From Limonium bicolor (Eukaryota > Streptophyta > Magnoliopsida > Caryophyllales > Plumbaginaceae): a DNA stretch of 64,000 nucleotides. The translations under genes were made by a program, and so were the position numbers. Positions 33,502 through 64,000 of the stretch are shown piece after piece. The notes under the pieces were generated by a model. It was given only the letters and a program-made list of their open reading frames with translations. It was not told where the DNA came from and did not search any database. Numbering within the stretch: the stretch's first letter is position 1; each line of letters starts with the position of its first letter. The stretch is taken from contig CM041778.1 of assembly GCA_023374045.1 (NCBI GenBank), positions 92,940,839-93,004,838 of the forward strand. Reading direction: 5' to 3'.

Positions 33502-36500
33502 CTACCGTTTCATTTCATCGTTATCCTCATTTTCATTTTCGATTACAACCGGCCTTCTTCCTGGAAGAACAACAGACCATCTGCAGTCTTTCGGATCCTC
33601 AACATACCACACTTGTTCGCAATCCTTTCCCAGAACAAATTGATCATCCTTATAACCGGACACGTGAAAGATCAACCAAGGTAAGCCCTCCATCATTTTG
33701 GTACCCGCGTCGGTTGTCCACCCACTTGCACCGGAACAACAGAAAGGAATCAATGTCATAGTCTAGTTCCCAGATGTCCTCGATGACACCATAATACCAA
33801 CTAGAGTTACTAACTGGTTGAGATCGGTTACCGCTGTGGTACTCAGTGGCAGCAGCTTCAATTTTTACCCCACTATTCTGGTTTATCGATTTGGCATCTT
33901 GGCGTGCAGTGTATGTATACCCACTAATATCATACCCCTCAAATGATGTAATATTAGTTTCAGGTCCGATTGCCAAACATCTGATCTCTTCACTTACAGC
34001 TTCTGGATCTGATGATGCTAATGTCAACACATGATCTTTGAACCATTGGATAAAAACTCGGTTTTGTTCCTTTGTCAGCCAAATGTGGTCTTTCAAAGGA
34101 TTTTGATGCCTTAACTCAACCATATGGGTTTCAAATAAGGTTCAACAACCTCAAGATGTTGTAAGACAAACAAATGTGCTTGATGAATAAGTTGACGCGA
34201 AACTTGCACGATCTTTCTACCAATGACACCTTTACCCTTAAACCTGCCATAGTGTCGTGGTTTTGGGATACCAATGACTCTGCCTCACTCAAATAATCGG
34301 TCACAAATTCCGTGACTTCCTCAGTCACTGTTGCTTCAACAATGCTCCCCTCTGGTCGATACCTATTCTTCATTCTACTTTTCAGAATACCCATGTACCG
34401 TTCAAAAGGGTACATGTACCGTAAGTATACCGGACCACAGAACTGTATCTCTCGAACGATGTGCACAATTAGATGCACCATTATGTCAAAGAAAGATGGT
34501 GGGAAATACATCTCAAGTTGACATAATGTGACAACAATTTCACGTTGTAGATCATCTAGAGAGGTTACGTCAATTGCCTTGGAGCAAACACGTTGAAAAA
34601 GAAACATAACCGAGTTAAAGCATTTCTGACATCAGATGGCAATATCCCTCGATTGCGAGGAAGAAGATGTAACATCAGTACATGATAATCGTGAGATTTC
34701 ATGCCTAAAAGTTTTAAATCCTTCATCGATACAATGTTCTTCCAGTTTGAAGAGTACCCAGACGGTACTTTTACCGAGTGCAGACATTTGCAGAAACTAA
34801 TCTTTTCAGCCTTTGAGAGCGTGTAGCATGCAGGAGGTAGGTAGATTCGTTTCCCATTCTCTTGTGGGTGTAACTCCTTTCGTATACCCATGGTTTGCAT
34901 GTCCTTTCTGACTTTCAATCCGTCTTTTGTTTTGCCGGGTATATTGAGTAAAGTCCCACTCACTGCCTCACCAACGTTCTTCACAATGTGCATGATGTCT
35001 AAGCAGTGTCTCACAGGAAGATGACGCCAATAAGGTAGATCCCAAAAGATAGAACACTTTTTCCAAATGTTTTTCGCCGGTTTTGATGTGTTTCCAAATA
35101 CATTTGCAATGTCCTTAACCTTTTCGTACACTTCTCAGAGCTCAAGGTAGACGGGCCACACGAGTTTCGGCTTGACCATTGAACAACTTTCTCTTCGTTA
35201 CTCGATAAGGGTGATCTTCGGGGAGAAGACGTCGATGACACATATAAACATTCTTCCCACAATGTTTTAAACGGTCCGAACAAGTGTCTTCCTCGCATAT
35301 GGGACATGCAAATGTTCCTTTAACCGTGTAACCGGACAAGTTCCCATACGCAGGGAAGTCATTGACGGTACAGAACAACAAAGCCTTGAGCGTGAAATTC
35401 TCTCTTGCATAAGCATCATATACCACGGTCCCCTCATTCCACAATAGCTTCAGATCATCGATCAGAGGGGCAAGTACACATCAATGCTATTACCTGGCTG
35501 CTTGGGACCAGATATCAGGAGAGATAACATGATGTACTTTCGTTTCATACACAACCATGAGGGCAAATTGTAGATCACTAGCAGAACAGGCCATGTACTG
35601 TGTTGACTACTCAATGTGCCGTACGGGTTCATTCCATCAGTACATAACCCAAGCCTCAGATTCCTATCTTCATGTCCGAAATGTTCTTTGTACCGTCTGT
35701 TGATGTTTCTCCACTGAGGCCCATCTGCTGGATGTCTTAATTTCTCATCACTCTTTCTACCCTCCGCATGCCATCGTAAGTTCTTTGCATCTTTCGGATT
35801 CGCAAACAACCGTTTGAATCTGGGTATAATCGGCAAATACCAAAGTAGTTTGCTGGAGGGCTTTTTTTCTGAACGGAGGAGTACTCACCATCTTTATGCT
35901 TATACCGGGACAACGAACATTTCGGGCAATTGTCCAGATGTTCGTATTCACCCCTGTACAACACACAGTTGTTTGGACACGCGTGAATTTTTTTGTACTC
36001 TACTCCCATTGGACACACCCATTTCTTTGCCTCATACGTGGTGGTAGGGAGACCGTTCTCATCCGGTAGCATATCATGAATCAGCTCGAGGAATGCCGTG
36101 AAACCTTTGTCACTCAATCCATATCTTCCCTTCAGGTTGAACAAATTCAATATAGCTGTCAATTTCGTGTACTTAGTGCAAGTAGGATAACGCCGTCTTG
36201 GATGCGTCCAACAACCTTTGATACTCATCCGGCCGGTCGACAAAATTATCCTCAACGTTATCAAGCATCTCGTCATTTGCTCATCATGATAAGTCGACTC
36301 ACTGTCAACATTGACTCCGGAAGCGCGGGAACTCGTTAGTAGTATCGAATGTCTGCTCGGTTCTTGAGTTACACCGATCGTGACTGTAGGAAGCTGAAGC
36401 ATTATCTTCAACAGGTTCTCCATGAAAAGTCCATTTCTATAATGTGGCATGAAACCACGGGTCTTCAGATGGAATTGTACGACGTTGATGCTTGAATATT

Positions 36501-36666
36501 GTCTAACCACACCACAATCAATACAAGGACATGGAATTTTCTTCGCCTTTGTCCTGTCCTTGTGTTGCACTGCAGCTTTGCAAAACTCTTTCAGCATCTT
36601 GTCAAAATGTTCCCCTCTATCACCATACATCCAGTCACGCTCCATACTATATGTGCAACAGATCAC
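33502..36666 (-). pseudogene. CACTA TNP2-type transposase, frameshifted
   Basis: Nearly the full TNP2 protein is present in overlapping frames. It has a transposase-associated domain with DWMYGDRG and a CPCIDCG Cys motif (36630-36450) and Transposase_21 pieces (36180-34565) with GLCTDGMNPYGTLSS (first Asp, about 35650) and HCLDIMHIVKNVGE (second Asp, about 35010). DUF4218 follows with LEMYFPPSFFDIMVHL (about 34510-34460) and MYPFERYMGILKSRMKNRYRPEGS, then DUF4216 with YYGVIEDIWELDYDID and FRCKWVDNRRGY (about 33820-33690) and an acidic C-terminus ending at 33502. At least five frame changes occur (near 35850, 35500, 35140, 34600 and 34130), each consistent with a small indel. The enzyme would cut and join CACTA ends. 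Unlike the copy at 396-3260, it keeps the middle catalytic region. Confidence 0.93.
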
Positions 36667-36699
36667 AGGTGTGAGTTATAGCCTTGTAAACTAAATTTA

Positions 36700-48609: not shown

Positions 48610-51600
48610 CCCCCCCCCCCTCAAGTCTTAGTTTTTCCGAAAACTGAGGCTTGTGACTTGAATCTGGTAAACCCAGTTTGGGAAGGGTAACTCTGTAGAC
48701 TTTTCCGGTCAGAGGCTTGGTCAATACATCTGCCAGCTGACGCAAACTTGGAACATGTTGAACTTGGATCAACCCAGCCTGTATCTGCTCTCGTACATAA
48801 TGACAGTCCAGCTCTATGTGTTTTGTTCGCTCATGCGAAACTGGATTCTTGGCAATATGTATTGCTGCCAAATTGTCGCACTTAAGAGGAATAGGTTGTA
48901 TGCCCTTCACTTCCAGCTCATGCAACAGACGTGTTAACCAGCTCAGCTCGCTTGCAACTTGCCTCATAGCTCTGTACTCAGCTTCTGCAGAGGAAAGAGC
49001 AACAGAGACTTGCTTTTTTTGATTTCCAACTCAACGGGGATCCTCCTAAGAGAATGTAAAAACCTGAAACAGATCTTCTAGTTATGGGGCATGATGCTCA
49101 ATCAGAATCGCAGTAAGCCAATAAATCATAATTGTTGTGTTCGTTAAAACTGATACCAAAACCTAATGTTCCTTTGATATAAGACAGAACATGATAAGCT
49201 GCACTTAAATGATCATCAGTAGGTTTTTGACAAAATTGACTCAAAAACTGGACACTGTGAGCTAAATCAGGACGAGTATTGGTTAGATATATCAACTTCC
49301 CTATTAACCGCCTGTACACTGCAGGATCTTCACGAGGAATGCCCACATCTTTGTCAAATTTCTGGTTCAGCAACAGAGGAGAAACAGCACTTCTGCAGTC
49401 CTGCATATCATAATCAAGAAGCAATTGTGTAGCATATTTTCTTTGTGTCATTATGAGTTGTTTTTCTATTTCAATGAATTCCATGCCAAGGAAAAAGGAT
49501 AGTCTGCCCAGATCCTTGACTCTGAATTTTTCATGAAGGTTTTGCTTTACTTTCCTTATTTCACTTGGATCATTTCCCGTTATGAGTATGTCATTAACAT
49601 ACACACCAAGGAAAGTGCATTGATTGTTTAGTTTCTTTGAGAAGAGAGAGTAGTCATTTTTGGACTGTTTGTAACCTAGATTTTTCAGGAAACATCCAAG
49701 TTTATCATACCATTGTCTAGAGGCTTGTTTCAGCCCATATAAAGACTTGTGTAACTTACAAACTTTATTGGGACCTGAAACAGTGAGCCCTTGTGGTATT
49801 GTCATGTAAACATCTTCCTTCAAATCTCCATGAAGGAAGGCATTGTTTACATCCAATTGATCCATTTCCCATCCCCTTTTTGTGGTAACAATGATTAATG
49901 CTCTAATGGTAGTTAGTTTAACTACCGGTGAAAAGGTTTCTTCATAATCAAAACCATACCTTTGTGTGAACCCTCTAACTACAAGTCTAGCTTTAAAACG
50001 TTCTAAGTTTTCATCAGCTTTGAATTTAGTTTTGAAAACCCATTTGCAAGATATGGGTTTCTTCCCTTGTGGCAAACTCACTATAGACCATGTGTTATTT
50101 TCTTTCAAAGCTTGAAATTCTTTTTTCATGGCTTCGACCCATCTAGGATCTTTGCTGGCTTCATCATAGGTAGTGGGTTCTTTCAAAGATAGGAGCTGAT
50201 CTAAAGCTGTTCTAGAAGGATTGGTTAGGGCAAAAGAGGAGATGGTTCTGTTTGGTATGATGTTGGTAAGGCTGTCTAGAGGAAGAAGGTTATGAGAGGA
50301 AAGGGAAAAGGATTTGTCATGTAATCTCTGAGTAATGATATCTGAATAGATATCACTACTTTGGCTAGTGGTGCAAACGTAATCTAGTAGTCTGATGGGA
50401 GCTCTATGGGGTCGAGTGGATCTTCTAAGTTCCACGTTTTCTTCAAGAACATTTCTTGGAGAAAACAAATTTCCACTCTCTGTTATACTTTATGTCTGGT
50501 CAGTGGGATCACTTTGAGAAGTCTGCTCTAGTTCTGTGGGAGAGTGGCTGGAAGACTTCGAGTTGGATGTATCAGGAGGTTTGGGAGATTGGGAACAGGA
50601 TTTTTGAGGTGTTGTGTATTGAAGGTCATCTGTAATCTCATTTGATATAGGTTGAGGTGTTGTTTCTGTTTCTGTGAAGAGAACATCTTGGGTCTCTAGA
50701 ACAGAGGGAGAATCCATGGTATTGTCAGAAGAAGAAGGGAATAGATATGTTATAGTTTGTGGTGAATTTTTGACAGATTTATCATGCCATACCTCACGCC
50801 ATTCATTATCTTGTATGGGGTAGATATTTTCAAAAAAACACTACATCTTATTAACCTGAGTTTCTCCTGTTTCTATATTCATAATGAGATAACCCTTAGT
50901 GTTTTTGCTATTTCCCAAGTAAACGCATGTTGAAGATCTTGGTTCTAATTTGCTCCTATGTGGTTTAACATTGGTAGCAAAACATAAACAACCAAAATTT
51001 TTAATGCAATCATAATCAGGAACAACGCCATTCAGTTTCTCAAAAGGAGTAAGATTACTTATGGCCTTAGAGGGCAACCTATTGATGATAAATGCGGCAT
51101 GATTCAATGCAAATCCCCAAAAATCAACTCCTAGACCAGATTGGAACAAAAAGGCTCTAGTGATGTCCATTAAATGTCATTGCTTCCTTTCCACCACCCC
51201 ATTTTGTTGGGGTGTGTGTGGGCAAGTCTTTTGGTGTATGATCCCTTTATTTTTAAAATAAGTGATTCCTTCTTGTGAACTACCAAGTTCCTTAGCATTA
51301 TCGAATCTAATCACTTTTATTCTTATATAAAATTGAGTTTCAACAATCTGGACAAAATCTTTGATGGCCTGCATGGCTTCAGATTTGTATCTTAAAAGCT
51401 TGACCCATGTTCCCCTTGTATAATCGTCAACTAAGGTTAGAAAATACCTATACCCCTCTGTAGTTTTTGTTTTCATGGGACCACAAGTATCAATGTGAAT
51501 CATGTAAAAGGGAACGGTGCTTTTTATTTCAGATTTTGTAAACCTTAGCCGTTTGCCCTTGGCTTTAAAACAAACTGTACAAGGTAAAATGTCTAAAGGG

Positions 51601-51668: not shown

Positions 51669-51688
51669 AGAAAAAGATCCTTGGTAGC

Positions 51689-54600
51689 TGTAACACCCCT
51701 ACCGTTAATCCTATGCTTACCGTCCAATGATCATCCCAATAATCAAAGCTACTTGCAGCGGAAACTGCTACTACTACGGCGGGTGATACAACGCCGCTAA
51801 CCGCCCATACGGTTAGCAAGGCTTACACTACTTACAGTGACGGTTGATGCCTAAGTATACCGAGCTACTACATTCCATACCAAATACAAAAGATAACATA
51901 CTTACATTGCTGGATCACCGAGTGTTTTAAAGTATTTAATTACATTCCCTTCCAATCTCAAAAAAAACTATGAGTTTCTACAAGCTACTCATCTATACCA
52001 ATTCACCATCCAATCATTATCCAAAAGGGGTGTACCCTATGGTACACCGGCTAACAAAAACCTACAGCCGTGTACAACACAGTACACCTTTCACAATTCA
52101 TTGTTTACAGACAAAAAGAAATCAAGTAAGATCTTCATCATCTTCACCCTTCTGTGTACCTACGTGTAGTAAAAACATCGCCCCAAGGGGCTCTGGAAAA
52201 GCTGCGCATAAACTCCGCATATACCGCGTGCTAGCTAGGGCACGCCGACTATTTAAGGTCGAATAGGCATGCGGTTCATTTATTTCATACATACATGCTT
52301 GGCATACGACATACATTCATATACGATACATTATACAATCCAAGGCAACAGTACAATAGCACACACCATACTTACCTTCACAAGTGTTAGCCAAGTTACG
52401 CATCCGGGTTAATCGGTATGCAGTTTACTCTTTTACTCATTACACAATGCTTTCTCTTACTTACACTTACTTACTTTTCCATACTTATTACTCATTCTTA
52501 CTTACTTACTTTTACTCATGTTAAGTCGGTGTGACCTCCGGCCCGGGGACTACACTGTCCCACCACCGGGATTTACTTGACTCACTAATCCGGGATGCTA
52601 CCCATTTAAGGGGTTTGGGCCGCGGACTAGTTTAAGAGTCAGGAATCGGATCCAACCTCTTGTGTCTCCTCATCCTCACGCGTGGCCGAATCTATATCGG
52701 ACTTCTACTCATTCCAATTTAATTACCAATTTAAGTTAGATTGGTTAGCTCGTCAAGAATCAGTTAGAAGTCCAATCACAAACGCATTCGGTCATAATAC
52801 AATACATCATACTCACACACACATTCATCCATACATTTCATGAATTATACAAACTATGATTTAAGGACAATATTCAGCAAGATACAACACTACATATTCA
52901 CAAGTAAGCATAATAACTCTGATTCGTGCATTTATCTTATTTGGTGATCAATTAGCACACAACACACAAATCAGAGTAACCAAGATAGCATACGGGGCAT
53001 GAGGAATTTATACCGTTCACCGTTGTACTTGTATCCCAACTTTCCTTCGGTGCTCACAAATCAAGTCCTATAACATACATGTGATCGAGTGATTAATTAT
53101 CTACTATTAACTCAACTCGTATCCCTATTACGTTCCTCAACTCTTACTTACTATGCCTCTACAATTCTTACACTTACACATTATTTAATTACTCTTCATT
53201 ACTTTAAGTTTATTTCTTTACACAACAAGGGTGTACTTCTACATATTTTATATACGTGTGTATACATATACATGTATGTATATACATATATTTGTTTTAA
53301 TTTTTTTTTGTGACTCGACCGACCTTACCCAAGGTCGGTCCCAAGGTCGGTTGAAGTCAGTAGGGAAATACGCTGGAAAATTTCAGGGCCGACTGACCTT
53401 GCAAGTCCGGTCCCAAGGTCGGTCCATCCAGTGAGTTACCTGGAGAATTTTTAGCCCGACCGACCTTGCAAGTCCGGTCGCAAGGTCGATCCATTCCAGT
53501 AAGTTACATGACGGAAAAATTTTGAGTCGACCGACCTTGCAAGTCCGGTCGCAAGGTCGGTCCATTCCAGTAGGTTACATTACGGGAAATTCTTCTGGCC
53601 GACCGACCTTGCATGTCCGGTCCCAAGGTCGGTCCATTCCAGAAGGTTTCCGTCCTTTGTAAATCTGGGCTCGACCGACCTTGCAAGTCCGGTCCCAAGG
53701 TCGGTCCGGCCCAGTATTTGCATTTTTATTTCTGTTTTCAGTCCCTCTTCTTACCCATTACTTACCCATTGTTCCTACACTTATTCCCATATGTTCTAAC
53801 ACTAATTAAGCTCCCTAATACTCCTTAGTTCATCCATTAACCCATTACTCATCTCTACACTAATTTACACCCTCATTTTTCCTAAGTTCCATTTCAGCAC
53901 TTACACTAAATCTTCCTTAGTTGCATTTGCTACAGATTTTGACTCTAGCTCTCTCCATCTATAGCTCCCTCTTCTAATGTCATTTCTAAAACTTCTAATG
54001 CATTAGACATCTCTCCATACTTACCCACTAACTAAACCAAATCAAAATCTGTTACAAGGGTATATTTTTACCTAGTTTCTAGTCTCTTAAGTGTTCTAGT
54101 CCTAGGTAAAATTTGACATAACCTCCCCTACATTTTTACACTCTCACCACATTGTTTCACTCACATATATGATCCATACCACCTGTTTATAACCAATATC
54201 AATATACCCAACTCTCATACACAAATACCACACTAAACAACATTAAATTCCTGCACTCAAACATTTAATTCCCATCTAGTTTGTGACAGTTTTTAAATGT
54301 CTTTTAAAGGTTCAAAACATTTGTATTCTCTTACACATTACACTACCACTACATTACCATTCTACAATACTCATTCACACTACTAAAAATCTGTTACATA
54401 ACCATTTACAAAACTACACAAGGATGAGTATAATTACCTTGTTCCTCTTCTAGTTTTTCTTTTCTTCTTCTTCCTTCTTCCTCCTTCCTTTCTTTCCTCT
54501 CTCTCCATCGGTTACATCACTTCACAATCTAACACTACAGCCCATATATACACACCATTTTAATACACTAACTAACCCTTAATCATTCTTTAAAGCTTAA

Positions 54601-55607
54601 TGCATATTTTAGGGTTTAGAAATTCCATTACCTTGTAAGGGTATAAGTGAAGCTTGGTATGGCTCAAGAACAAGATTCCAACTCCTCCAAGAATGCCAAA
54701 ATCGGCTAGAGTACAAGGGAACCAACCAAGGTTTAGTCTAAATTTCATTTTGCTCACAAGGGCTAGAAAAAGGTAAGCTTTCAAGAATATTTTTACCTCA
54801 AAATGACAAGGAGAAGGAGGTGGTTCTAATGGTAGTCTTGAAGCTCCAAATGCTACACACCCATGGAGATGAAAGTTCTTGTTTTCTAATTTTGAAAAGA
54901 GGCTAGTGTTCTCCTTGAGGAGAGGAAGACAATGGTGTAATTTTTGTAATTTTTGGAGTAGGTTTAGACACCTAACAAGATGAGAGAAGTGGAGGTTTTG
55001 GTGTGGGTGCTCAAAACTCCATTGATGTCGGTTGGAGAAGGAAGGAAGAATGAGAGTGAGGGAGGGGGTCTGTACGATAGTGAAAGAATGAGGGGATATG
55101 AGAGAGAATAAGTGAGTGAGGTAGTAAAGTAATGTTTACTTTTTGCTTTTTAATGTTTTGTTGTTTTGTACATATGAAGAGAGTTAAGAGAGGGTGTGAG
55201 AGAGGGGTCAAAATCGGACCACACAGCCCACACACACACACTCTACTTTTTATTTTAATAGTGGACACATAAGTTTGAGTTATTTATGTTTCAACCCCAC
55301 AACTTCCCGTTTTTGACAGTTTTTACTAATTTCTTGTTTTATTGATTTTATTGGTTCTAAAGCTTCACTAATACTTATTAATGACTATTTAGTTGAACAA
55401 AATTGTTACGAGTCTATTTAACCCGCTTAAAGTCACGTTTTCCCGGTGTCCTCGAAAAATGCGCTTTAAGGTTCGTTAGTGTTTTTAATCCGTTTTAAGG
55501 ATTCGTTTTCTTCGGGATTTGTTCCCTCATGATTATTTAGACTTAATTTTGCTTATAAAATATTTATTAGCCTAATTAATCACTGTTTCTAATTACGGGG
55601 TATTTCA
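51689..55607 (-). repeat. 3' LTR of the chromovirus (3919 bp)
   Basis: TGTAACACCCC to GGGGTATTTCA on plus, followed by the polypurine tract at 55608. It matches the right LTR from 62137. It is recognisably related to the LTRs at 8775-12950 and 18620-22778, for example in ACCTCCGGCC, CACGCGTGGCCGAA and TCGAAAAA-GCGCTTTAA. ORFs inside are chance frames. Confidence 0.95.
53316..53712. repeat. LTR hairpin tandem array, six units
   Basis: Units of about 60-70 bp with GACCGACCTTGCAAGTCCGG paired with CAAGGTCGGTC and a CATTCCAG tail. The array starts in the right LTR at the equivalent place (63767) and runs past the window edge. Confidence 0.92.
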
Positions 55608-55620
55608 ATCTACCCCCCTT
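55608..55620 (-). promoter_or_regulatory. polypurine tract of the chromovirus
   Basis: AAGGGGGGTAGAT on the minus strand, directly next to the LTR start TGAAATACCCC. It is identical to the tract at 12951-12963. A similar stretch lies at 55992-56003, about 45 bases downstream of the pol stop. Confidence 0.85.
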
Positions 55621-56048
55621 AAGAAACTTTGCCCTCAAAGTTGCTCAAGGTTAATAGTTTATCCATTCTACTCATTAGGCAAACCAATTGCCATAATGCG
55701 TCTTACTACACCTATAAGGTGTTTACTTCCTTCCACATTGCAAGCATACACACTTCAAGCATCATACCCAATTCACATACACAATCCATCATTTTCAATT
55801 CATACCATTCCACAATACAACATTGCAACAATACACATTACACAAACATCACACATCGTACATACACATCCATACACCACACATTACACATACACACCAC
55901 ATACACTCCGCACTACATGTGCTATCAAAACCTACTACAGTACCTTCCCACTAAGCAATGCTAACCCGAAGCAATGCAAAAGCAAAAAGGCTCTACCCCC
56001 CTTAAAAGGGGTACACCCCATACCCGTATCTACAAGACACTAGACTAT
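55621..56048 (-). other. 3' untranslated region of the chromovirus
   Basis: Non-coding, CA-rich on plus (ACACAT and CACATACAC runs). It contains the second polypurine-like stretch at 55992-56003. Confidence 0.6.
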
Positions 56049-59000
56049 CTAGTCTATGAATAACTGTGGGTACTTCGCCTTCATGGCGTCTTCTAACTCC
56101 CATGTTGCTTCTTCGACATCGTGGTTAGACCATAGGACTTTCACCATTCGTATAGACTTATGGCGAGTGTCTCTGGTCTTCCTATCAAGGATTCTCACAG
56201 GGGTCTCGACATATCTCATGGTCGGCTCAATAGATAGTCTCTCAGGCTCTATGACATGAGAAGGATCAGCAATATACTTCTTGAGTTGTGACACATGAAA
56301 TACATCATGGACACGTCCCAAGTCCTCAGGTAATGCTAACCTGTAGGCTACAGCTCCAACTCTCTCGGTGATAGCATACGGCCCTACAAACTTTGGGCTC
56401 AGCTTGCCCTTCTGGCCAAATCGGAAGACACCCTTCATAGGTGAAACGCGCAAGAACACTTGGTCGCCCACGGCGAACTCAAGGTCGTGTCGTCGCACAT
56501 CCGCATAGGATTTCTGTCAATCTTGGGCTGCCTTCATATATGCTTGAATCTGCTGAACTTCAGCTTGGACTTATTCAAGATACTCCGGTCCTATGATGAC
56601 CGCTTCACTTGATTCATCCCAACACAAGGGTACGGCAAGGTCTACCATATAAAGCTTGGAAAGACGACATCTTAATCGAGGCGTGATAGCTATTATTGTA
56701 CGAAAACTCGATAAGATGAAGCTTATCTAACCAACTCCCCTGAAAGTCTAAGGCACATGCCCGAAGCATGTCCTTCAGTGTCTGGATGGTTCTTTCTGTC
56801 TGACCGTCGGTCTGAGGATGGAAGGCAGTACTCAACTTCAATTCTGTACCCAGCGCTTCCCGTGTAGCTCTCCATTATCTCAAAAGAAATCTTGTGTCGC
56901 GGTCAGATACAATTGTTTTCGGGACTCCGTGATGTCTGATAATCTCCTTGTCGAATAGCTCTGCGAGCTTCACTACCTTTTAGGTGTCCTTCAGCGGTAT
57001 GAATCTGGCCACCTTGGTGAGGCGATCGACTACAACCCAGATCATGTTGAGTCCTCCCCTGGCAGGTTGGAGTCCTACAACAAAATCCATGGAGATATCA
57101 TGAAATTTCCACTCCGGAACTAGCATCGATTGTACCATTCCGCCCGGTCTACGATGTTCAAACTTCACTTTCTGGCATGTTAAGCATCTCAATAAGTACT
57201 CTGTCACATTTGACTTCATCCCAGACCACCAGAAGTACCTCTTCATGTCTTTGTACATCTTGGAGGCTCCTGGATGGACTGACAATGTGGAACTGTGTGA
57301 CTCTCGCAGGATGCGATCCCTTAGCTCTGCATTGCTTCGGGGGACGCATAGCCTGCCATTCAGCCGAATCAGACCATCTTCATGCAACTTAAAATCATAT
57401 TTCTTCTTCTCAAATGTACCATCCGTGATCTTCTGTCTGATTTTGGTTAGGTAAGGGTCGCTCAACTGAGCGTCTCGCACCTCGTCAACCAAGCTAGAAG
57501 AAGCGAGTAGCGAATTGAGCGAGTGTGCTCGACGGCTCAGGGCGTCGGCTACCACATTTGCCTTCCCTTCCTTATATTGTAGATTGATGTCGTAATCTGA
57601 AAGAAACTCCATCGATCTTCTCTGTCTCAAATTCAATTTTTTTGCGTGAATACATACTGTAAGCTCTTATGGTCGGAGTAGATGGTGATGCTTACCCCAT
57701 AGAGATAGTGTCGTCATATCTTCAAGGCGAAGACAATGGCTCCTAGCTCTAAGTCGTCGGGTAATTCTCCTCATGCTTTTTCAGCTGGCGGGAGGCATAA
57801 GCTACAACCTTGCCATGCTGCATGAGTACGCATCCCATTCCCTTGCCTGATGCATCACAATATACCTCAAATCCCTCTGTGCCCTCTGGAAGAGTAAGGA
57901 TGGGCACTGAGTTCAATGAGTCTTTTAGGCTCTGAAATGATACTTCGCACTCGTCTGTCCATAAACGGTGCATCTTTCTTCATCAGTGTAGTCATGGGCT
58001 TAGCGACTTTCGAGAAGTCCTTTACAAATCTCTGGTAGTAACCGGCTAGACCAAGAAAGCTCCTAATGTTGGTAACAGTCTTGGGTCTAGGCCATGATCG
58101 TACAGCTTCTATCTTAGAAGGGTCAACTGAGATACCTACGCTCGAGATGACATGACCGAGGAATGATACCTGATCTAGCCAGAACTCGCATTTGGAGAAC
58201 TTCGCATACAGCTGGTTCTCACGCAGTGTCTCAAGCACTTTCCTCAAATGAATTTCATGTTCTTCTGCTGATTTGGAGTATACAAGGATGTCGTCGATGA
58301 AGACAACAAACGATGTGTCCAACTGCTCACTGAATAGTCGATTCATGAGATCCATAAATTTTGCTGGTGCGTTTGACAAACCGAATGGCATAACGGTGAA
58401 TTTGTAGTGGCCATATCTGGTACGGAATGCCGTTTTCTCTATGTCTTGCTCTTTGATAGCAATCTGATGATACCCAGAACGGAGGTCGGTCTTGGAGAAG
58501 ACTGAGGCTCCTTTCAGCTGGTCAAATAGGTCGCCGATGCGTGGCAATGGGTATTTATTCTTGACTGTGACCGCATTCAGCTCGCGGTAGTCAATACAAA
58601 GTCGGAGACTACCGTCCTTCTTCTTCACAAAGAGGACCGGTGCTCCCCAGGGTGATACGCTCGGGCGTATGAACCCTTTGTCGAGTAGGTCTTGCAACTG
58701 CTCTTTCAACTCTGTCATTTCTGCAGGTGCCATGCGGTACGGTGCCCTGGCAATGGGACCGGTACCTGGCAAGAGGTCAATCTCAAATTCTACCGCTCTC
58801 TGAGGTGGCATGCCGGGTAGCTCCTTAGGGAATACATCGGGAAATTTGGATACAATTGGTACATCATTACTGAACTCTGGATCTCTCTCCAGGTCTTGTA
58901 CGTAACACAAATATACTTCTTTACCCTTCCTGAGCTCCCGGTACATGGCCATAGCGGAGATGACTGTGGTCGAAGGCTCTCTCGGTCTCTGGCGGTAAGA

Positions 59001-59385
59001 TACAGTAACCCCAGAAGGACTCTTGAGCAGCAATCGATGCTCGGCGCAGAGGATCCGCCCCTTGTGCCGCTCCAACCAATTCATTCTGATTATCAAGTCG
59101 AATCCCAACCCATTGAACTCGATAAAGGAGATGGGAAACGTTTCGCCTTTGATTTGGATTGAGGCTGATGTGTAATATTTGGTACACTTTACTCGCTCCT
59201 TCGATGGGAGAGTAACCAGAAAATTCGGTAGCTCATCCGCATCTAGCCCCAACCTCTTCACGAAAGGTGGTGATACGAAGATGTGAGAGGCGCCGGAGTC
59301 GAATAACACTGTGGCTTTAATGCCTTTCACTGGGAAGGTTCCCGTTAAGATGGTGCCGCTTCTACGGCTTGTGCTTCGATGAGGA
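56049..59385 (-). pseudogene. Ty3 pol: protease, RT, RNase H, integrase, chromodomain
   Basis: Protease: [12 protein letters not shown] (about 59305-59270), with [12 protein letters not shown] just upstream in frame. [54 protein letters not shown] (catalytic FIDD, about 58300-58270), [11 protein letters not shown]. RNase [21 protein letters not shown] (57875-57815), entered after a frameshift near 57965, and broken again near 57740. Integrase: HH-CC zinc region with VHPGASKMYKDMKRYFWW and CLTCQ (about 57290-57170), ISMDFVVGLQPARGG (first Asp), VSDRDTRF (second Asp, about 56915), HPQTDGQTERTIQTL (Glu, about 56815). After two stops near 56575 and 56520 comes GVFRFGQKGKLSPKFVGPY and a chromodomain (MVKVLWSNHDVEEATWELED, about 56140-56080), ending at 56049. 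A stop at about 56971 splits integrase. Confidence 0.95.
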
Positions 59386-59557
59386 TACTCAGGTTACCTT
59401 CGGTACCGAGTCCACAACCTATTGAAGTCACAATTTCATAAGTATTGATGGTGGACACAAGTGGAATTAAATCAACACTGCTCTTTATTGATAAACCAAC
59501 CATCATACATACCGTGTCTCTAATACACGTTACTAATACATTACATGTACTATGAAT
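59386..59557 (-). other. junction between AlkB domain and protease
   Basis: About 170 bases between the natural-looking AlkB stop (59558-59560) and the protease frame. No domain is readable. It may be captured 3' untranslated sequence of the dioxygenase gene, or worn gag-pol linker ([12 protein letters not shown] at about 59395-59360 may be the original linker). Confidence 0.45.
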
Positions 59558-60295
59558 TTAATACTTCCTAAAGGTAAGGTTCAGGCGTCCTGGTTTCATG
59601 TGTGTGGCATTAATTATTGCCGGTGGTGCCGTATTCAACTTGATCTTGTTGATCCTGTGATACAGCATCCTAGAGTTTCCACCCATGATTAGGACATCCT
59701 GATCTCAATACCAGTTTCTGTGCGAGGTCCACACGCTTCTGCTCACTATACATAAATATGGCGTCGTCACCAATGGACCAAGACACTACGGGCACTCCTT
59801 GTTCAAGAGATTCCGCTGCCTCGTCCTTGTCTTGGTGTAACCCAAGTCGTCCTTCTTTCTCATAGAAGTTGACGATACAAAGGTCCGCTTCAAGTGCGGG
59901 GATCGGATCATATTCGCATTGTTGTGCAAGTTCTACTACTTGTGTGACAAGTGTCTGAAATTCTAGAGGTATTGTCGGTGGCGTCGCTCCGTCTTGTGTT
60001 CGTGTCTCTTGGTATGTCTTGGTATAAGGATTCCAGTCCTTTCCCAAGCACATCATCTTCAGCTTCATCTTTGCTCCACCGGGAAATTCGGGTGTATAAA
60101 ATCCTCCTTGACCCGTTTCTAGTTAGTTGCATCGTCGAATGATTGAAATTTGTGCTTCGGGTGCCAGGTATCCCCGTAATAAAATCATACCTGGTCGGAT
60201 GACCTGACACTGCTCACTGGAGTAGTGGTGATTGGTGATGTCGGTCTCTTCTTGATTTGGTTTCGAAGGTATCGGATAACAGATACTAAAGCTTC
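59558..60295 (-). pseudogene. captured AlkB-type 2-oxoglutarate/Fe(II) dioxygenase domain within the retroelement
   Basis: The family normally removes methyl groups from nucleic-acid bases using Fe(II) and 2-oxoglutarate. Visible in order are CQVIRPGMILLRGYL (about 60210-60165), GGFYTPEFPGGAKMKLKMMC (about 60105-60045), CLGKDWNPYTKTYQETR, CIVNFYEKEGRLGLHQDKDE (about 59890-59830, the HxD iron motif), PVVSWSIGDDAIFMYS, then LIMGGNSRMLYHRI (second iron His, about 59690-59650) and GRLNLTFRKY with the RX5R 2-oxoglutarate motif, and a TAA at 59558-59560. The motifs resemble the plant AlkB-homologue group with the MMCLG-W signature. A TAA at 60123-60125 and a 2-nt loss near 59699 break the frame; otherwise it is well kept and without introns. 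It lies between gag and protease on the same strand, joined to gag by a predicted phase-1 intron (60296-60449). Confidence 0.88.
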
Positions 60296-60449
60296 CTACG
60301 GTTATAAATTTCATCTACGGTGAGTACTAGTTTCAACTACTTCTTTTCGTGCTCATTACACACTTCAATTCATTTACTCATGCATTCACTCAAACAAATA
60401 CTCCAATACTTAGACATGCTTCTCAAGGATTCAAGGTTTAGATAATTAC
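60296..60449 (-). other. predicted intron between gag zinc-knuckle exon and AlkB exon
   Basis: Donor CCCAG followed by GTAATTATC (intron starts 60449); acceptor TATAACCGTAG followed by GAAGC (intron ends 60296). Length 154 bp, phase 1. Removing it joins the gag frame (ending GSKSGP) to the AlkB frame (beginning SFSICYP) through a reconstituted Gly codon. Without splicing, gag would end at the stop at 60370-60372. No transcript evidence is available. Confidence 0.55.
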
Positions 60450-60794
60450 CTGGGCCAGACTTAGAACCGGACCCGTCACGGTCAATCACGTGCAAGACAG
60501 GCTGCCTCTGGGGTGCGCCCCTCTGAGGACCCCAGGATCCTTGTCCCTGTGGTGCCTGCTGGGTCGGTGCATCGCCAAATGCAACCTCCTTGCCTTCCCT
60601 CTGTTTGTAGCTTTGGAAGTTTCCTCGGGGTTTAGCATCTTCTGGGCACATGTTGGCTCGGTGTCCGGGCTTCTGACAATTGTAGCACCGGATTTCTCTC
60701 CATTGGCAATCCTTGCCGAGATGGTCTTGATTGCACTTCCGGCACACATAAGTGCGGCCATCTGAGAAGTTCTTGGTGAAACCGGAGCCAGAAC

Positions 60795-60880
60795 CTAAGG
60801 TTTAAAAGGGTTAGCACATTTGTGCGTGGATATACTAGATATGATACTTGTACGATTACGAATTAGGAATAGAAGTTTAC
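60795..60880 (-). other. predicted 86-bp intron in gag
   Basis: Donor CCAAAGG followed by GTAAACTTC at 60880; acceptor TTAAACCTTAG at 60795 followed by GTTCTGGC. Phase 1; removal joins KG to SGSGFTKNF in frame and skips non-coding AT-rich DNA with in-frame stops. Confidence 0.6.
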
Positions 60881-61157
60881 CCTTTGGTGGGTGTGATCTC
60901 AGTGGCTTTGCAGCCATTGGTGCAGATGAACCTAGCTGAAGAATTTCAACCGGGTTGCCCTTCTCAGCATGGGCACTACTCTCACTTGGGAAGTTCTTTT
61001 GAGTTTGATTGAAGAACTTTCCCTTCTTCTTTTTCCAGCTTTTCCCTTGGTTCTGCTCCTCGGCACTAGTGTTCTTACTGTTAGCCTTGCGCTTTAGCGC
61101 GGTTTCTTCATCCCTTAGCTAGCAAGTGATCTCAACACGAGAAGCCGCGTGATAACA

Positions 61158-61255
61158 CTCTTGAAGTTTCAGGTATTAGCCGGGATTCTTATTTAAAAGG
61201 AAGATAAGGAAAAGATTAAGGAATTACAATGGTATAGGGTTTAACCGATATTTAC
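61158..61255 (-). other. predicted intron of about 98 bp in gag
   Basis: Donor CTTCAG followed by GTAAATATCGG at 61255. Candidate acceptor TTCAAGAG ending at 61158 joins FTSLQ to CYHAASRVE in phase 0; a CAAG acceptor two bases earlier is also possible but would shift the frame. The interior is AT-rich with stops in all frames. Confidence 0.5.
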
Positions 61256-61946
61256 CTGAAGAGAGGTAAACCTGGTATAGCCCATACCGTACCGCAGGCG
61301 ATGGCTCAGACCGCCATAGAAGCGATCGACCAACACCTGGCCGGTGTACCCAAGGTCGGGTAGAAGACGGAGAATGGAGGTGAAGGTGCGGTAATACTCG
61401 TCGACAGACATCTTCTCTGTCATTTTCAAGGCATCCAGCTCTAGCCTTTTCTTAGTTTTCACATGCTCCGGATAGTATTTGGATCGGAGGAGAGAGGCAA
61501 AGGACTCCCAATCGAAGGTGGGGTCGTCAACATATTCGTGCTTGACAAGCTTCCACCAATCCATAGCAGCATCCTTGAGGTAGTAAGCCGCTACTCTAAC
61601 TCAAACTCCAGCAGGATCTTCGAGGGTTTCGAACGCCGTCTCCATTTCGGAGATGTAAGCTTCAAGTTTAGCAGATCGCTCTCGCCTCTAAAGCATGGAG
61701 GTCGAGATCTGCGATAGCTTTTACCCAGTTTACTTCTCTGGGTGCAGGGGGCGGGATTGGTCCCGTTTGAGCCTGTTGGTTTTGCTGGTTTTGCTGCATA
61801 GCAGTGATTACTTGGGGTAGCATCTGTGCTACCGTGGCGGTGACGATTTCAGCTATCGTCTGCGCGCCCGGTCCGTCGTTGGCCCCTCGCGACCTGGACC
61901 TCTTCCTAACATCTGAATATTTAACATTTGCATTAGGTTGTGACAT

Positions 61947-62119
61947 ATGGCCAAAGATCTTGAATTTAAGCAAGGGTATCGTTCATAAGAATGTCAAGGG
62001 TATCCGTTGTTAAAAACGGTAGTTCCTAGTTAGGTTTCTATGTATCCGTCTTAAGACGGTTGAAATCCTAATTCGGTAATCCCTATGCTCGGTAACTATG
62101 GACATCAGAGCGTAACTAC
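61947..62119 (-). other. 5' leader of the chromovirus
   Basis: Non-coding stretch between the primer site and the gag start. Its primer-site-proximal part (about 62060-62119) resembles the matching part of the LARD-like element (about 18530-18602). Confidence 0.65.
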
Positions 62120-62131
62120 GCTCTGATACCA
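62120..62131 (-). promoter_or_regulatory. primer binding site, initiator-Met type
   Basis: TGGTATCAGAGC on the minus strand, five bases from the LTR end. It lies within a 24-nt palindrome at 62104-62127, like the site at 18603-18614. Confidence 0.92.
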
Positions 62132-62136
62132 CTTTT

Positions 62137-64000
62137 TGTAACACCCCTACCGTTAATCCTATGCTTACCGTCCAATCATCCCAATAATCAAAGCTACTCG
62201 CAGCGGAAACTGCTACTACTACGGCGGGTGATACAACGCCGCTAACCGCCCATACGGTTAGCAAGGCTTACACCACTTACAGACATGGTCTGATGCCTAA
62301 GTATACCGAGCTACTACATTCCATACCAAATACAATAGATAACATACTTACATTACTGGATCACCGAGTGTTTTAAAGTATTTAATTACATTCCCTTCCA
62401 ATCTCAAAAAAAACTATGAGTTTCTACAAGCTACTCATCTATACCAATTCACCATCCAATCATTATCCAAAAGGGGTGTACCCTATGGTACACCGGCTAA
62501 CAAAAACCTACAGCCATGTACAACACAGTACACCTTTCACAATTCATTGTTTACAGACAAAAAGAAATCAAGTAAGATCTTCATCATCTTCACCCTTCTC
62601 GTGTACCTGCGTGTAGTAAAAACATCGCCCCAAGGGGCTCAGCAAAAGCTGCGCATAAACTCCGCATATACCGCGTGCTAGCTAGGGCACGCCGACTATT
62701 TAAGGTCGAATAGGCATGCGGTTCATTTATTTCATACATACATGCTTGGCATACGACATACATTCATATATGATACATTATACAATCCAAGGCAACAGTA
62801 CAATAGCACACACCATACTTACCTTCACAAGTGTTAGCCAAGTTACGCATCCGGGTTAATCGGTATGCAGTTTACTCTTTTACTCATTACACAATGCTTT
62901 CTCTTACTTACACTTACTTACTTTTCCACACTTATTACTCATTCTTACTTACTTACTTTTACTCATGTTAAGTCGGTGTGACCTCCGGCCGGGGACTACA
63001 CCGTCCCACCACCGGGATTTACTTGACTCACTAATCCGGGATGCTACCCATTTAAGGGGTTTGGGCCGCGGACCAGTTTAAGAGTCAGGAATCGGATCCA
63101 ACCTCTTGTGTCTCCTCATCCTCACGCGTGGCCGAATCTATATCAGACTTCTACTCATTCCATTTTAATTACCAATTTAAGTTAGATTGGTTAGCTCGTT
63201 AGGAATCGGTTAGAAGTCCAATCACAAACGCATTCGGTCACAATACAATACATCATACTCACACACACATATTCATCCATACATTTCATGAATTATACAA
63301 ACTATGATTTAAGGACAATATTCAGCAAGATACAACACTACATATTCACAAGTAAGCATAATAACTCCGATTCGTGCATTTATCTTATTTGGTGATCAAT
63401 TAGCACACAACACACAAATCAGAGTAACCAAGATAGCATACGGGGCATGAGGAATTCATACCGTTCACCGTTGTACTTGTATCCCAACTTTCCTTTGGTG
63501 CTCACAAATCAAGTCCTATAACATACATGTGATCGAGTGATTAATTATCTACTATTAACTCAACTCGTATCCCTATTACGTTCCTCAACTCTTACTTACT
63601 ATGCCTCTACAATTCTTACACTTACACATTATTTAATTACTATCCATTACTTTAAGTTTATTTCTTTACACAACAAGGGTGTACTTCTACATATTTTATA
63701 TACGTGTGTATACATATACATGTATGTATATACATATATTTGTTTAAATTTTTTTTTTGTGACTCGACCGACCTTACCCAAGGTCGGTCCCAAGGTCGGT
63801 CGAAGTCAGTAGGGAAATACGCTGGAAAATTTTAGGGCCGACCGACCTTGCAAGTCCGGTCCCAAGGTCGGTCCATTCCAGTGAGTTACCTGACGGAGAA
63901 TTTTTAGCCCGACCAATCTTGCAAGTCCGGTCGCAAGGTCGGTCCATTCCAGTAAGTTACATGACGGAAAAATTTTGAGTCGACCGACCTTGCAAGTCCG
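62137..64000 (-). repeat. 5' LTR of the chromovirus, cut by window edge
   Basis: Starts TGTAACACCCCTACCGTTAA at 62137 and aligns with 51689 onward over all 1864 visible bases, with scattered substitutions and a few short indels. The hairpin array begins at about 63767 and continues past the edge. Confidence 0.94.

Follow-up and report, generated by a model that had tools for sequence, protein, structure and literature searches.

An AlkB domain lies inside a Ty3 long terminal repeat (LTR) retrotransposon of Limonium bicolor, at positions 59558..60295 on the minus strand of a 64,000-nucleotide stretch of contig CM041778.1 (hereafter the window, to which plain coordinates refer). We consider it likely that a Ty3 lineage long ago captured an intronless plant enzyme of the ALKBH1 type, and that it keeps this enzyme as a selected alternative exon within the intron between gag and pol. 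Loci carrying the domain sort into four subfamilies, A (that of the window copy), B, C and D, whose representative AlkB proteins are 54-74% identical.

The AlkB exon of the window copy

The open piece at 59670-60122(-) matched the AlkB profile PF13532 with E=2.6e-24 and contains the sequence HQDKD, which includes the HxD motif. After a 2-nt loss the rest of the domain continues in another frame (59698-59561, 46 residues, 74% to the database protein P0001), where the second His (RMLYH) and the R-x5-R motif (GRLNLTFR) were recognized by eye. The domain thus combines a PF13532 score above the cut-off with the HxD...H and R-x5-R signature of the AlkB family, and the copies L011, L020 and L071 scored 150-170 bits against a cut-off of 31.2. 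The segment 59558-60295 is an AlkB domain, far beyond chance.

A first-pass annotation of this DNA had reported these motifs on the same strand as gag and pol, inside matching LTRs, and a reading frame broken by one stop and a 2-nt frameshift. All of this was confirmed. The premature stop lies at 60123-60125, and the exon counts 737 letters against 739 in 25 of 40 similar copies, a net loss of 2 nt. The boundaries proved right to the base, and they coincide with a single exon: a splice acceptor AG|G lies directly before 60295, and the exon's own TAA stop occupies 59560-59558.

Proposed splicing of the AlkB exon to gag

The gag zinc-knuckle exon (60450..60794) ends in phase 1 at the donor CCAG|GTAATT (60450/60449), and the knuckle reading frame closes soon after this donor. 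It could be joined in phase to either of two acceptors. The first is the AlkB acceptor (60296/60295), reached across the 154-nt GT...AG intron C1 (60296..60449). The second is the AG|G boundary of the protease/pol exon (59419/59418), which starts at 59418 and is separated from the AlkB stop by a spacer (59420..59557) that forms the 3' part of a large gag-to-pol intron. Because the AlkB exon has its own stop, Gag-AlkB and Gag-Pol products would be mutually exclusive. The position between gag and protease given by the first-pass annotation therefore stands, whereas its free module looks like an alternative exon spliced to gag.

Donor and AlkB acceptor were both present in 64 of 75 loci (L038 uses another donor), and an alignment of 70 loci retained the AG of the AlkB acceptor in 65 and that of the protease acceptor in 68. 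In subfamily D, the three sites of L079, read by eye, have other letters (GAAG|GTTAGC, TTAG|GAGAC and TTCAG|GCTACG) and are all in phase 1. Gag itself seems to hold a further GT...AG intron, intron B (60880-60795). An intron A is also probable, with a possible donor CTTCAG|GTAAAT recognized by eye at 61255.

One of the 40 subfamily A loci, L007, has the structure of a reverse-transcribed spliced RNA. Compared with the unspliced L040 (92% identity over 3,494 aligned bases), it lacks 85 nt at intron B and 152 nt at intron C1. These are the only internal gaps of at least 8 nt on the L007 side, and its gag frame continues in frame into AlkB. Neither intron was lost in any of the other 39 subfamily A loci. 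Across the genome, the pattern of the gag-AlkB junction was matched exactly at 15 sites (A 1, B 7, C 7; subfamily labels of junction sites were assigned from the matched letters), while the reversed control had none. The pattern differed by 2-6 mismatches from 69 other loci (six at 2, 57 at 3-4 and six at 5-6). The junction sites include a row of three and a row of two; a row of junction copies near C1:98.43-98.45 Mb has a spacing of ~11 kb.

Several observations weigh against this reading. L007 is the one gag-AlkB junction copy that was read around its junction, a later stop interrupts its AlkB frame, and it retains the putative intron A. The loci that lie two mismatches from the junction pattern (four C-type loci, L037 and L050) are unspliced, and a few of the C matches could reflect chance decay. 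As read from genome copies, splicing of gag to AlkB appears well supported, and skipping of AlkB by splicing less so.

The evidence on skipping comes from a gag-protease junction pattern, which matched 13 sites (A 6, B 6, C 1) and none in the control. These copies could instead represent a sister lineage that never carried AlkB, does not skip it, and produces pol by other means such as readthrough or reinitiation. L084 (G000:C3:123578650-123579290), the one gag-protease junction copy that was read, runs in frame from gag into protease without AlkB; it retains intron B, its gag is 72-80% identical to that of subfamily A, and it may be an AlkB-less relative rather than a spliced copy. The AlkB motif was found 684-775 bp upstream of 76 of the first 100 protease-motif sites (and the protease motif downstream of 76 of the 97 AlkB-motif sites in the same stretch), and no exact AlkB motif lies near the remaining 24, where AlkB is either absent or merely changed. 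CCAG|GT is moreover a proto-splice site, such that an element lacking the cassette would show the same sequence. Against a separate lineage, the junction bears the letters specific to each of the subfamilies A, B and C (6, 6 and 1 sites, respectively), and all 70 loci compared are at least 3 mismatches away from the junction pattern. We regard the AlkB-less lineage as unlikely, though clearly the strongest of the alternatives.

It is also conceivable that AlkB is made as a separate protein, from its own start codon by internal initiation or reinitiation, and that the splice sites are incidental. The exon has its own stop and contains internal ATG codons, and the AlkB enzyme of an orchid element (ORF2, see below) is indeed separate. 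Donor and acceptor are, however, kept in phase in subfamilies A-D, and the exact junction occurs in L007 and at 14 further sites. We therefore consider a separate protein improbable.

Selection on AlkB

Selection was assessed from the ratio of nonsynonymous to synonymous substitution rates (dN/dS) in 43 of 50 open AlkB frames, kept for having both end motifs. Between subfamilies, dN/dS was 0.13 (A-B), 0.11 (B-C) and 0.07 (A-C, with dS near saturation), values that are lowered somewhat by the sampling of open frames only. Shifted-frame controls on the same alignments gave 0.98-1.90 for these three pairs. Hence, the dN/dS comparison across copies proposed in the first-pass annotation yielded a ratio of ~0.1. 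H153 and D155, two of the iron ligands, and the arginines R237 and R243 were unchanged in all 43 rows, spanning subfamilies A-D, and the third iron-ligand His was altered in at least one row (L039). The functions assigned to these positions follow PMC9289625, in the part available, and general knowledge of the family. Mean pairwise distances by region were not used, because the loci had been chosen by AlkB similarity and are hence biased. The ratio of about 0.1 between A, B and C suggests that AlkB has been maintained under purifying selection in the element lineage.

Other values fit this conclusion less well. Within subfamilies, dN/dS was 0.27 in A, 0.16 in B, 0.16 in C and 0.23 in D (a single pair); for D versus A, B and C it was not computable owing to saturated dS. 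Moreover, an open AlkB frame of at least 245 residues was present in only 16 of the 40 DNA-similar subfamily A copies, or in 14 under a stricter motif rule. The broken window copy and the 24 copies without a full open frame are what would be expected if AlkB were an unused passenger, a captured piece of a gene that travels with the element. Individual dead copies naturally are passengers. For the lineage as a whole we find this explanation very improbable, given the low dN/dS between subfamilies, on which a functionless passenger was rejected, and the invariant HxD and R-x5-R motifs in all 43 open-frame rows of subfamilies that differ so widely.

Abundance of the family

The genome that was searched comprises 2.92 Gb in 2,686 contigs. 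The AlkB motif MC[FILM]GKDWNP had 13,993 exact matches, and the reversed control had none. If most of these matches were full elements of 10-14 kb, the family would occupy 140-200 Mb of the genome, although many may be partial. Of 6,649 candidates from a DNA search with the exon, 40 were scored, and all 40 (the window copy included) were 94-100% identical over at least 735 of 738 bp. Among 38,325 candidates for PF13532, the best 150 all span the full profile and 149 have no internal stop; candidates were ranked by profile score, which favours intact copies. Subfamily D was met through a pattern designed for the host ALKBH1-like gene. This pattern matched 16 sites, ten of which had loci that were examined (seven of subfamily D and three of the host gene), and the D loci that were read keep the gag-AlkB-protease order.

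The order and the flanks were the same in all such loci read, across the four diverged subfamilies. The domain thus belongs to the element, as the first-pass annotation had proposed: it is neither a single copy nor an oddity among AlkB-less elements, and the further copies share the gag and protease flanks. A fragment dropped into one element by a gene-carrying transposon (Helitron or Pack-MULE) can practically be dismissed, as ~14,000 motif matches and constant boundaries rule out a lone or transposon-dropped copy.

Rows of three to four AlkB elements in one orientation, with a spacing of 10.0-10.6 kb, occur at G000:C1:497439466-497470353, C1:7386924-7419496 and C1:4327920-4349481. Together with the row of junction copies near C1:98.43-98.45 Mb, they resemble tandem arrays, which have perhaps grown through LTR recombination.

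Origin of the enzyme

Plant ALKBH1 is closest to the element enzyme in both sequence and fold, with OsALKBH1 as the best match. The fold match to OsALKBH1 (1e-27) is far stronger than the best match in a viral library (E=5e-11) and those to plant-virus replicases (near 1e-8), which rules out a viral source. A sequence search with the element AlkB found no ALKBH5 chain at E<=1, and a scan of viral contigs with P0001 gave two pattern stretches and no confirmed relative.

The host carries ALKBH1-like gene copies at G000:C3:703728 (L075), C3:132821031 (L077) and C3:133828877 (L078). L077 is frame-broken, and the tblastn figures of L078 equal those of L075 apart from one E-value. In L075, introns follow PEQ and GRLGLHQ. 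Relative to this gene, the element exon starts just ahead of the FDIC motif and shares the C-terminal end. Since it lacks both introns, the source was in all likelihood a spliced, intronless copy of a plant ALKBH1-type gene, which agrees with the first-pass proposal of capture via a spliced transcript.

A tree of 50 rows was built from 14 element sequences, five database proteins, 25 plant genes, the host gene and an outgroup of five metagenome AlkB sequences; it was rooted by midpoint, which placed the root on the branch to the metagenome rows. The 14 element rows and the five database proteins (P0143, P0001, P0002, P0003 and P0008) form one element-type clade of 19 rows (support 98/90). Beside it stands a clade of 26 plant genes, i.e. 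the 25 genes and the intron-bearing host gene (support 97/93). The element-type clade is therefore the sister group of the sampled angiosperm ALKBH1 genes and is not nested among them. The first-pass annotation was right about a plant source, which is of ALKBH1 type, but today's host gene is not recognizable as that source, and the proposed tree put the element enzyme beside, rather than within, the sampled plant genes. That the element only recently picked up the gene now found in the host is ruled out by the separate clade. Because the element copies and their relatives form one clade beside all sampled plant genes, the capture looks old and single, and because the five database proteins fall inside this clade, the module is probably present in further species.

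The best 120 of 7,980 reverse transcriptase relatives come from many plants, and none is close. Eighteen of these 120 have the knuckle and the protease in one frame, 50-114 residues apart, and none of the 18 carries the AlkB motif. In view of these relatives, AlkB appears to have been inserted into an otherwise ordinary gag-protease arrangement.

The Ty3 element of the window

The element extends from 51689 to the end of the window (51689..64000) and runs on to 66059; the element and its parts described below lie on the minus strand. It is flanked on both sides by a perfect 5-bp target-site duplication GTAGC, at 51684..51688 and, outside the window, right after 66059. The 3' LTR (3,919 bp) occupies 51689..55607. 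The 5' LTR (62137..64000) is cut by the window end, and the 2,059 bp beyond it, up to 66059, were taken from the genome. The two LTRs are 97.7% identical, with 70 mismatches in 3,911 ungapped columns. At 1.3e-8 substitutions per site per year, this divergence corresponds to an age of roughly 0.7 million years for the window copy. The LTRs contain tandem units of ~70 nt with GACCGACCTTGCAAGTCCG, at 53330-53723 and 63779-64000.

Next to the 5' LTR lies the primer-binding site TGGTATCAGAGC (62120..62131), which we take to be of the initiator-Met type, and a polypurine tract, identified partly by eye, adjoins the 3' LTR (55608..55623). Profile searches placed gag (PF03732) and a zinc knuckle (PF00098) upstream of AlkB on the same strand, and protease (PF08284), reverse transcriptase (PF00078) and integrase pieces downstream. 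The gag capsid exon spans 61241..61600 and is followed by an open middle exon (60881..61118). The pol of the window copy is split over several frames, into an open piece with protease and reverse transcriptase (57867..59393), a piece with the integrase zinc-binding domain (56980..57666), where the frame is broken, and the SH3-like integrase end (56049..56516). A chromodomain match (PF00385) at the expected integrase end stayed below the cut-off (E=4.8e-05, 23.6 bits versus 25.1). LTRs, target duplication, primer site and the order gag-protease-reverse transcriptase-integrase identify a Ty3/gypsy element, and with this sub-threshold match it is probably a chromovirus, perhaps of the Tekay/Del clade. 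Elsewhere in the window, a CACTA-type transposase-like fragment (35737-36675) and a Ty1/copia reverse transcriptase piece (49098-50489) were noticed by eye, both on the minus strand.

Proposed role of the Gag-AlkB fusion

Copies with an open frame would encode a predicted fusion of Gag, its knuckle and AlkB that ends at the AlkB stop. The RNA for this fusion appears to have been reverse-transcribed and integrated on occasion, as seen in L007 and supported by the 15 junction sites. A competing splice would join gag to protease-pol and skip AlkB. Through its Gag part the fusion may be carried into the virus-like particle, where the enzyme might strip N-methyl groups, such as N1-methyladenosine (m1A) or N6-methyladenosine (m6A) in RNA or N6-methyladenine (6mA) in DNA. 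Packaged RNA, primer tRNA and single-stranded cDNA are candidate targets; the benefit could be easier reverse transcription, or concealment from readers of methyl marks. The first-pass annotation's idea that the enzyme acts on element RNA or DNA fits this proposal, and the element may carry a tool to clear chemical marks from its own RNA or DNA copy.

Taken as a whole, this account holds that alternative splicing yields a Gag-fused ALKBH1-type dioxygenase, which is taken into particles and clears packaged RNA, primer tRNA or nascent cDNA of methyl marks or lesions, and that it derives from a single capture outside the sampled angiosperm clade, inherited via several subfamilies and probably in more than one species. 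We put it forward tentatively; it falls somewhat short of being probable. The ~14,000 motif copies and the natural cDNA copies of spliced RNA make both the splicing and the enzyme directly testable.

Comparison with known systems

The first-pass annotation assumed that no such module was known from LTR elements, which is incorrect. PMC9289625 (Alvarado-Marchena and others 2022) describes, in the part available, giant Ogre/Tat elements from Phalaenopsis with an ALKBH5-like open reading frame (ORF2), whose enzyme is an m6A demethylase in vitro. According to the same part, a screen of 121 genomes found AlkB domains in Ty3 elements only in Phalaenopsis. A 2025 review (PMC12786077) cites the orchid case and states, in the part available, that plant LTR elements generally lack introns, except for Ogre and EVADE. 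In the one open-access library that was searched, the orchid paper was the one report of AlkB in an LTR retrotransposon; the results included neither an LTR element with a domain of the ALKBH1 type, nor a chromovirus example, nor a gag-pol intron containing an exon for an enzyme. Hence, what is apparently new here is the clade of the enzyme, the scale, the apparent age and the predicted Gag fusion chosen by splicing.

Like the orchid element Gypsy_Pa_2799, the Limonium element is a plant Ty3 element that captured a 2-oxoglutarate- and iron-dependent dioxygenase of the AlkB superfamily and kept it through amplification to high copy number. The orchid element, as described in PMC9289625, is of the Ogre/Tat type, ~25 kb long, with gag-pol in one reading frame and the ALKBH5-like enzyme in the separate ORF2. 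In contrast, the present element measures 14.4 kb, has a weak chromodomain match, and bears an enzyme of another type in another position, between gag and protease and apparently spliced to gag. This is apparently a second, separate AlkB capture by plant Ty3 elements, involving a different clade of AlkB enzymes and an element of another build. It gives the impression that chemical marks on the nucleic acids of such elements are a recurring battleground.

With the plant proteins ALKBH1C/ALKBH1D (OsALKBH1, PDB 5XEG/5XOI) the element enzyme shares the fold, the iron and 2-oxoglutarate residues, the FDIC motif ahead of the domain and a similar C-terminus (LNLTFR). The host gene differs in having two introns in this part and a longer N-terminus, and the element form lacks those introns and forms its own clade. 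Plant ALKBH1 proteins are reported to be 6mA demethylases that act mainly on single-stranded DNA (PMC12973404, PMC8118384, in the parts available), unlike the m6A eraser of the orchid case. Several plant RNA virus families named in PMC9289625 likewise carry an AlkB fold as part of a parasite of plants; there, the domain sits inside replicase polyproteins and its fold match to the element enzyme is weaker.

For the splicing, the nearest counterparts are Ogre, with a spliced intron between its open reading frames (PMC6317226), and BARE, with a spliced Gag-only RNA (PMC3735527). In these elements, as far as the available parts of both papers go, the proteins made likewise depend on an intron close to the gag-pol boundary that is spliced in part. 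Their splicing joins or removes pol, whereas the intron of the present element harbours an exon for an enzyme, complete with a stop codon. The authors of PMC3735527 report that they were unable to amplify DNA copies of the spliced BARE RNA from barley, whereas copies of spliced RNA appear in the Limonium assembly. An enzyme exon in the gag-to-pol intron, where splicing would choose between Gag-AlkB and Gag-Pol, thus sets the wiring of this element apart from the systems known to us.
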